From the NCBI GenBank assembly GCA_947466075.1, contig CANIBP010000020.1, positions 1-64,000 of the forward strand: 64,000 nt of DNA. Direction: 5' to 3'. Below the pieces are notes generated by a model. It was not told the origin of the DNA, did no database searches, and saw only the letters and a program-made list of their open reading frames with translations. Position 1 is the first letter of the stretch. Each line of letters starts with the position of its first letter. A program made the translations under genes and the position numbers. This DNA comes from Verrucomicrobiaceae bacterium. Its GTDB lineage: Bacteria > Verrucomicrobiota > Verrucomicrobiia > Verrucomicrobiales > Verrucomicrobiaceae. Shown here piece after piece: positions 18,388-50,841 of the stretch.

Positions 18388-20211
18388 ATGAAAAACTCCA
18401 CGCGTGTTCAGTTTTGGGGAACCAGGGGTTCCATTCCTAGACCGGGGCGTGACACGTTGCGCTATGGTGGCAACACCTCCTGTGTGCAGGTTACCTCGCC
18501 CAAAGGAAGTTTGGTGATCATCGACTGCGGCACTGGTGCCCATGATCTCGGCCATTCTCTCGTGGCGCACGCCTCAGGCCCATTGCGCGGCAGTATTTTG
18601 ATCAGTCACACGCATTGGGACCACATCCAAGGGTTCCCGTTTTTTTCGCCTTTGTTTGTTCGTGGTAGCCAATGGGACATCTACGGCCCGGCAGGTCTCG
18701 GTCAGTCGCTCCGCGAAACTCTCGCGGGACAGATGCAATACTCCTATTTTCCGGTCACACTGGATGAGTTGGGTGCAAGCATTCGCTTCCATGATCTTGC
18801 CGAGGGTAGTTTTGAGATCGATGACGTTCGTATCAGCACGCGTTATTTGAATCATCCGGCTCTGACGCTTGGCTATCGCCTGGAAACTGCCAATGCCTGC
18901 ATGGTGTATGCCTGCGATCATGAACCATTTTCGAGAACGCCGGGGGTCTCCACGCCCATTCATGAAAATGATCGGCTGCACAGCGAATTTCTCTCAGGCG
19001 CCGATCTGGTGATACATGATGCGCAGTTCACCGACGCTGAGTATGCCGCCAAAAAAGGCTGGGGACACAGCCCGGTGGAATACGTGGCTGAGATGGGACG
19101 CCTGGCCGGTGTCAAACAAATGGCCTTTACGCATCATGATCCGGGGCGAACAGACGATGACATTGATCGTATCGTTGAAGCTGTGCGTTCCGAACCGCGG
19201 AAAACAGACGACACGTTGCAGGTGTTTGGTGCTGCTGATGGTCAGATCGTGGAGTTGAAGCGGACAGGCACAAATCAGGGGGGATTGGGAGGAAGGTCAT
19301 CCAAATCGGCGGCGATGCCTGCCATCAAAGATTCCCTGGTGATCATGGGTGTCGCAGACGCGGGACTGGCGGTGGCGCTAGCTGAAGCAGCGGTGGCCGA
19401 AGGTGTACGAACGGTGCATGTGTCTGATGGTGCGCGTGCGATGCAACTGGCCAAGACTGATACGCCATCGCTAATCCTCCTTGAGGACCAATTGCCGGAT
19501 CAGGATGGGCTGAGTGTTTGCCGAAGTCTGCGCTCGGATCCCGACCGCCGTCTCTCTGACGTGCCGATCGTCATTGTCGGGAAGCAGGAAAGATCCAGCG
19601 AAGGCATGGAGGCTGGTGCCACGGCCTGGCTGACCAAACCTTTCTCCATCCAATACGCCAAAGCCCAAATCCAGGCGTGGCTTATGCGCTCCGCCTGCCG
19701 TTGGATGCGCGCAGCCGTGCCATCGGATGAAGAATCGCGGCTCGCGGCACTCCATGACTTGTCGATACTCGATACGCCACCCGAGGAGAGATTTGACCGC
19801 ATCACACGCGTAGCTGCGGCTCTAGCGGATGTGCCAATCGCGTTGGTTTCGCTGGTGGATGAACACCGGCAGTGGTTCAAATCCTGCGTGGGGTTGGGAG
19901 TTAACGAAACCTCTCGTGAACTGGCTTTCTGCGCTCACGTGGCCTTGAGCCGCAAGCCGATGATCGTGTCAGACACGCTTCTGGACGACCGGTTTGCTGA
20001 CAGTCCGCTGGTCACCGGCGGGCCTCGCATTCGTTTCTATGCCGGCTTTCCGGTGTTTCACGATGATGGCGGCTGCTTGGGCACGCTGTGCCTGATCGAC
20101 ACCCGCCCACGGCAGTTTCCTGATGCGACGATTCAATTGTTCGCCGATCTAGCCAACGTGGTGCAGCAAGAACTCAATTCCAGCCCGCGATCTGTGGCGG
20201 TATCAAGCTGA
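18388..20211 (+). CDS. Metallo-beta-lactamase / degenerate receiver / GAF fusion protein
   Basis: A 607-residue soluble three-domain protein. Residues 5-290 form an MBL-fold hydrolase of the PhnP/RNase Z-like type, with HTHWDH (about 74-79), HDAQF and THHDPGRTDDD supplying metal ligands. Residues 310-430 resemble a response-regulator receiver with the TKPF lysine. However, the phosphoacceptor position reads LLEDQLP, placing Glu366 where Asp normally sits, and the usual N-terminal acidic pair is absent. Residues 445-600 are a GAF domain (LDTPPEERFDRIT, FCAHVAL, GTLCLID). The likely role is a signalling or sensing hydrolase, perhaps nucleotide- or redox-responsive. The catalytic substrate is unknown. 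Confidence 0.85.
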   Translation: MKNSTRVQFWGTRGSIPRPGRDTLRYGGNTSCVQVTSPKGSLVIIDCGTGAHDLGHSLVAHASGPLRGSILISHTHWDHIQGFPFFSPLFVRGSQWDIYGPAGLGQSLRETLAGQMQYSYFPVTLDELGASIRFHDLAEGSFEIDDVRISTRYLNHPALTLGYRLETANACMVYACDHEPFSRTPGVSTPIHENDRLHSEFLSGADLVIHDAQFTDAEYAAKKGWGHSPVEYVAEMGRLAGVKQMAFTHHDPGRTDDDIDRIVEAVRSEPRKTDDTLQVFGAADGQIVELKRTGTNQGGLGGRSSKSAAMPAIKDSLVIMGVADAGLAVALAEAAVAEGVRTVHVSDGARAMQLAKTDTPSLILLEDQLPDQDGLSVCRSLRSDPDRRLSDVPIVIVGKQERSSEGMEAGATAWLTKPFSIQYAKAQIQAWLMRSACRWMRAAVPSDEESRLAALHDLSILDTPPEERFDRITRVAAALADVPIALVSLVDEHRQWFKSCVGLGVNETSRELAFCAHVALSRKPMIVSDTLLDDRFADSPLVTGGPRIRFYAGFPVFHDDGGCLGTLCLIDTRPRQFPDATIQLFADLANVVQQELNSSPRSVAVSS

Positions 20212-50385: not shown

Positions 50386-50841
50386 ATGAGCTCCCTCACT
50401 ACACCCAAGCTTCCAGCCCAAGGCATCCTCGAACCCCTAGGTGAAGAAGATCGCGACATCCTTAGCGGTTACGGCGAATTCCTTCCCGTGCAGCCCGGCC
50501 AGCATCTCATTGAGGAAGGCCAGCAGCAGAATAGCCTCTTCTTCGTCGTCTCTGGCAAATTCCACGCAACTGCCATGCGCGGCGGTCACAAGGTACTGCT
50601 TGGCTCGATTCAAAAAGGCGAAACGATCGGCGAAATCAATCTGCTCGATCCTAACGTTGCTAGCGCGAGTGTTACCGCAGTCGAATTTTCCCAGGTCTGG
50701 CGCATCGACGGTGAAACCCTCGAAATCTACATCAACGAGTATCCACGTGCCGCCGCCTGGCTGCTCATCGGTGTCGGTCGCACCATCTCCCACCGTCTCC
50801 GTGCGGTGAATGAGAAGATCGCCGCCTTCTACAGCGCCTGA
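50386..50841 (+). CDS. Stand-alone cyclic-nucleotide-binding domain protein
   Basis: A 151-residue protein consisting of one cNMP-binding (CAP effector) domain: FLPVQPGQHLIEEGQQQNSL, FVVSGKFHATAMR, GSIQKGETIGEINLLDP, and a C-terminal helix (RTISHRLRAVNEKIAAFY). There is no DNA-binding helix-turn-helix, so it is not a complete Crp/Fnr regulator. It may act as a sensor subunit. The upstream 258-bp gap contains a short direct repeat (ACTCTCCATA/ACTCTCCATG) next to the start and no gene. Confidence 0.85.
   Translation: MSSLTTPKLPAQGILEPLGEEDRDILSGYGEFLPVQPGQHLIEEGQQQNSLFFVVSGKFHATAMRGGHKVLLGSIQKGETIGEINLLDPNVASASVTAVEFSQVWRIDGETLEIYINEYPRAAAWLLIGVGRTISHRLRAVNEKIAAFYSA

Follow-up and report, generated by a model that had tools for sequence, protein, structure and literature searches.

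A metallo-beta-lactamase-fold protein with a degenerate receiver and a GAF domain, a candidate GAF-controlled cyclic-mononucleotide phosphodiesterase, in a bacterial clade of wide distribution

Within the window, i.e. the whole stretch of 64,000 nucleotides analysed here, a single open reading frame encodes a metallo-beta-lactamase (MBL)-fold hydrolase, a receiver (REC) and a GAF domain (Table 1). A sequence-only reading of this DNA had already placed the three domains in one polypeptide; Pfam confirmed this, and its coordinates and residue numbers proved exact. The three matches exceed the curated cut-offs: Lactamase_B_2 (PF12706) at residues 43-250 (E 6e-16, 59 bits against a cut-off of 27), Response_reg (PF00072) at residues 336-423 (E 6e-11, 43 bits against 30.2) and GAF (PF01590) at residues 465-595 (E 5e-19, 69.6 bits against 22.4, model positions 2-132 of 133). 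Genes for a hypothetical protein and an M23 peptidase lie 5' on the same strand, the 3' neighbour is convergent, both ORFs abutting, and no adjoining kinase gene was found by Pfam among the neighbouring ORFs.

Table 1. Features of the MBL-REC-GAF gene, in coordinates of the window
Feature	Coordinates	Strand	Basis and remarks
Whole ORF: MBL-fold hydrolase, pseudo-receiver and GAF in one polypeptide	18388..20211	+	607 aa; Pfam
Metallo-beta-lactamase-fold hydrolase domain, residues 5-290	18400..19257	+	Pfam PF12706; Foldseek
Metal-binding motif HTHWDH, residues 74-79	18607..18624	+	Ligand conservation; further ligands H156, D177, H249 and the pair D211/H227
Degenerate receiver core (pseudo-receiver), residues 314-420	19327..19647	+	Pfam PF00072; model fold; 0/39 clade members canonical
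Site of the receiver acidic pair, Val322-Ala323	19351..19356	+	Alignment
Phosphoacceptor site, Glu366, codon GAG	19483..19485	+	Sequence and alignment
Site of the conserved Thr/Ser, Gly398	19579..19581	+	Alignment
Receiver conserved Lys417, retained	19636..19638	+	Alignment; Lys kept in 7/39 of the clade
Helix alpha5 and connector to GAF, residues 421-464	19648..19779	+	Conserved; W439, E448, R451 invariant
GAF domain, Dcsbis-like, residues 465-595	19780..20172	+	Pfam PF01590; Foldseek; PDB profile search

Receiver columns were read from a MAFFT alignment of the window's protein with 75 relatives. The phosphoacceptor column is occupied by Glu366 and the acidic-pair columns by Val322-Ala323, with Asp324 one position further on, which confirms both the Glu replacement and the missing acidic pair reported by the sequence-only reading; to these our alignment adds Gly398 in the conserved Thr/Ser column, a point absent from that reading. 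Lys417 and the following Pro418 are retained. The opposite assignment, with Asp367 as the phosphoacceptor among otherwise conserved receiver residues, had been put forward as the finding that would speak against the Glu replacement; it is ruled out because Asp367 aligns at D+1, and the observation therefore stands. The structure prediction that had been proposed together with the alignment yields a complete (beta-alpha)5 receiver at residues 317-436, in which beta3 (362-366) ends at the Glu itself (AlphaFold2 run on 39 sequences, mean pLDDT 82.8, with a pTM of 0.55 at which relative domain placement is unreliable). The domain is thus recognised computationally as a receiver, PF00072 being above its cut-off, and has lost the key residues for phosphotransfer: one of the five canonical response-regulator residues, Lys417, is present, and V322, A323, E366 and G398 stand in place of the others. 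With Glu at the phosphoacceptor and the acidic pair missing, its sequence supports the earlier proposal, and makes it very likely, that this receiver does not undergo ordinary phosphorylation.

The proposed search for the same three-domain architecture, run as a genome-contig scan and a genus search, retrieved 38 other loci. Lactamase_B_2 and GAF were matched by Pfam in all 39 proteins, and Response_reg at E 0.01 in only 18 of them because the receiver is so degenerate. The word 'uncommon' in the sequence-only reading holds for density, the gene occurring in 1 of 289 genomes sampled from the window's phylum (the window's own) and in two other genomes among those searched within its genus, but not for span, since the record labels of the 39 proteins cover about ten bacterial phyla. 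Two of the record titles, naming Klebsiella pneumoniae (a metagenome bin) and a Halobacteria archaeon (L041 and L050), are probably misassigned, these proteins falling among bacterial homologues. In an MBL-domain tree the GAF proteins as a single clade were not rejected (AU p 0.915). The neighbourhood is whole and in the same order in the closest relative (L044; 88-92% identity), whose own copy of the gene (L044:4001-5820, = L010/L037; 90-95% identity) is divided into two frames by a break near residue 228; its dN/dS is still low, and the break is either recent or an artefact of assembly, the sequence coming from a metagenome bin. No recurrent flanking gene family, and hence no conserved neighbour or partner kinase, was found beside the clade loci, and the large flanking clusters look like shadow ORFs of the MBL-REC-GAF gene itself. 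MBL-REC-GAF is real and widespread, joins parts already known and follows a clear evolutionary pattern; the literature library searched yielded neither a description of this architecture nor biochemical work on it.

This pattern concerns the receiver and what follows it. A canonical site, defined as all five residue positions intact, is found in none of the 39 MBL-REC-GAF proteins, in 16 of 19 MBL-REC proteins without extension and in none of 16 proteins of a long class; two proteins outside the main sample agree, one with GAF being degenerate (L130) and one without GAF canonical (L131). Across the clade the phosphoacceptor residue is Glu in 25 members, Asp in 7, Gly in 3, Ala in 2, Gln in 1 and Thr in 1, with no fewer than 13 changes along the tree; Ser/Thr is kept at the Thr site in 10 of 39 and Lys in 7. 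Glu is therefore favoured, not required, at this position. The earlier suggestion that Glu locks the receiver, in its extended form a built-in phosphomimic holding the hydrolase constitutively on, draws on the prevalence of this residue, on its mimicry of aspartyl phosphate in NtrC (cited in PMC4395418) and on the replacement of Asp by Glu in plant PRRs and Ascomycota Rim15 (PMC12632262). However, it fails to explain the 14 members with Asp, Gly, Ala, Gln or Thr, the repeated change of the residue, and the loss in 29 of 39 of the Thr/Ser that couples this site to the output face; because Glu is not conserved we disfavour the lock as a general mechanism and regard it as improbable. Phosphorylation by a non-canonical route, for instance on Asp324 or Asp367, is more improbable still. 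The retention of Lys417 and of Pro418, invariant in the clade, and the occurrence of Asp324 in 22 and Asp367 in 10 of 39 members would accommodate it, but the first acidic position lacks Asp or Glu in all 39 and the second is acidic only once, and neither an adjoining kinase gene nor a recurrent neighbouring family could be found to serve such a route.

The long class comprises proteins of about 730-780 aa (L093, L096, L097, L099, L101, L103-L105, L108-L113 and L116), in most of which a single chain would unite a putative phosphodiesterase with a sensor of cyclic nucleotides and with a diguanylate cyclase; in alignment A2, cNMP-binding and GGDEF domains occur in 16 and 15, respectively, of 37 MBL-REC members. 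Two independent losses of phosphorylation, one in the GAF clade and one in the cNMP/GGDEF clade, are not established, because a tree joining both degenerate classes in one clade was not rejected (AU p 0.43). It is nonetheless tempting to speculate, at somewhat less than even odds, that the gain of a C-terminal sensor (GAF, or cNMP-binding plus GGDEF) displaced phosphorylation as the input and that the receiver was remodelled into a non-phosphorylated element transmitting a ligand signal to the N-terminal enzyme. If true, sensor gain would be a general and repeatable bacterial route to pseudo-receivers.

Loss of the phosphotransfer site raises the question of whether the domain has decayed into a functionless relic, a mere spacer. 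The receiver core is indeed the least conserved folded part of the protein, with a mean pairwise identity in the clade of 0.24, to be compared with 0.59 for the MBL domain, 0.48 for alpha5 plus connector, 0.54 for GAF and 0.42 for the receiver core of MBL-REC proteins, and Pfam fails to recognise it in more than half of the clade. On the other hand, dN/dS in the core between the window's protein and its two closest relatives is 0.09 and 0.14, and the receiver therefore looks constrained by purifying selection rather than a relic; the intact predicted fold, the invariant Pro418 and the presence of the receiver-aligned region in every clade member likewise make the relic unlikely. The invariant residues W439, E448 and R451 of the connector suggest, as far as sequence conservation can tell, that receiver and GAF are functionally connected.

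The GAF model of Pfam covers the whole domain, whose closest structure is Dcsbis (4zmu; 40% identity, 1.2 A, Foldseek best match), also the best match by sequence profile (E 2e-50, PDB profile search). Dcsbis forms a dimer through its GAF domain, which holds a large pocket (PMC4937426). The NKFDE motif of cyclic-nucleotide-binding GAFs was found by pattern search in 0 of 39 clade members. The GAF domain is probably the input of the window's protein.

As for the output, the hydrolase combines the PF12706 match with a full set of metal ligands: H74, H76, D78, H79, H156, D177, D211 and H227 are identical in 74 of 74 proteins and H249 in 73. Foldseek relates its fold to RNase Z, YhfI, PhnP-family enzymes, yeast PDE1 and Apyc1, with the arylsulfatase 8gyg also ranked high. 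The atypical class II enzyme Rv1339, a member of PF12706, is a cAMP phosphodiesterase (PMC9293780), and cAMP/cGMP are the preferred substrates of YhfI and of another, related MBL phosphodiesterase from B. subtilis (PMC9117128). The NCBIfam equivalogs for RNase Z (TIGR02651; 73 bits against a cut-off of 293) and for cyclic-nucleotide phosphodiesterases (NF041851; 37 bits against 400, with fold and metal site in agreement) both score far below their cut-offs, and the MBL domain is therefore filed under neither.

The genomic context bears on the substrate. The genome of the window contains five class III cyclase matches and nine cNMP-binding matches, one of which is a small ORF in the window itself (50488-50736, +; open frame of 153 aa). 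Class III nucleotide cyclases are present in 27 of 27 other host genomes tested versus 42 of 96 in the phylum sample, a comparison unmatched for genome size and phylum. No GGDEF match was obtained in the genome of the window (6.4 Mb, assembly about 94% complete) or in 4 of these 27 hosts, so c-di-GMP is unlikely as a shared substrate; this context, we infer, favours a cyclic mononucleotide over c-di-GMP. On balance, and by analogy with the characterised enzymes, we lean towards a cyclic mononucleotide as the substrate of the MBL domain. A different substrate, be it an RNA end, a sulfate ester, a nucleotide diphosphate or a compound of a phosphonate pathway, is rather unlikely: the Foldseek ranks of the arylsulfatase, RNase Z and PhnP-family enzymes and the two low equivalog scores speak for it, but the RNase Z score itself falls well short, relatives are fused to cNMP-binding and GGDEF domains, and cyclases occur in every host genome tested.

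Taken together, there is about an even chance that the protein is an atypical class-II cyclic-mononucleotide phosphodiesterase under GAF control, in which the former receiver acts as a non-phosphorylated coupling or dimerisation module. The MBL domain, with its intact binuclear-metal site, would cleave a cyclic mononucleotide, for instance cAMP or cGMP, as an enzyme like Rv1339; GAF would dimerise the protein and bind a small molecule; and its signal would reach the MBL active site by way of the conserved alpha5 connector and then the pseudo-receiver, standing in for the aspartyl-phosphate switch still present in the shorter MBL-REC relatives. The GAF-regulated metallo-phosphodiesterase envisaged by the sequence-only reading is supported to the extent that we infer it by such analogies. 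Points against this best reading are the RNase Z, sulfatase and PhnP-type likeness of the MBL fold and the Asp, Ser/Thr and Lys kept by 7, 10 and 7 of the 39 clade members.

Several known proteins share part of this organisation. The MBL-REC proteins (e.g. L076, L079, L088 and L131) resemble the window's protein in hydrolase, domain order and metal site but lack a C-terminal sensor, and 16 of 19, as well as L131, have a canonical receiver. In MBL-REC-cNMP_binding-GGDEF proteins (L093, L104, L111) a degenerate receiver again comes after the same hydrolase, and the C-terminal sensory part has cNMP-binding and GGDEF where the window's protein has GAF; their phosphoacceptor is mostly still Asp (12/16). 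Rv1339 (PF12706) and, with the same fold, YhfI and Apyc1 share the HxHxDH metal site, but the last two consist of the MBL domain only, as homodimers, and have neither receiver nor GAF. The same genome also encodes a 445-aa protein (L002; contig C10:49092-49943, -) joining a receiver to an MBL domain of 35% identity, in the opposite order REC-MBL, with the receiver N-terminal, its motifs read as canonical, and without GAF; homologous MBL matches to it occur in most genus genomes searched. Dcsbis (PA2771), which has the closest solved GAF, is a GAF-GGDEF diguanylate cyclase, so that its GAF controls GGDEF and not a hydrolase. The beta-LR16 response regulator (PMC4364456) is unrelated.

Bacterial pseudo-receivers and aspartate-less receivers retain, as here, the receiver fold but lack the residues of phosphotransfer, with Glu a known substitute for Asp, and the main text of surveys of these proteins (PMC12632262, PMC4395418) makes no mention of lactamase or GAF. 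The switching of bacterial pseudo-receivers was called a mystery in a 2025 review (PMC12632262). The clade described here may reveal widely distributed regulated cyclic-nucleotide phosphodiesterases, including in genomes that, like the window's, have nucleotide cyclases and no detected GGDEF. Moreover, the clade and its relatives form a matched comparison in which one and the same enzyme comes either with a canonical receiver but no sensor or with a dead receiver and a sensor behind it, so that swapping domains, with enzyme activity as a simple read-out, makes pseudo-receiver switching testable.
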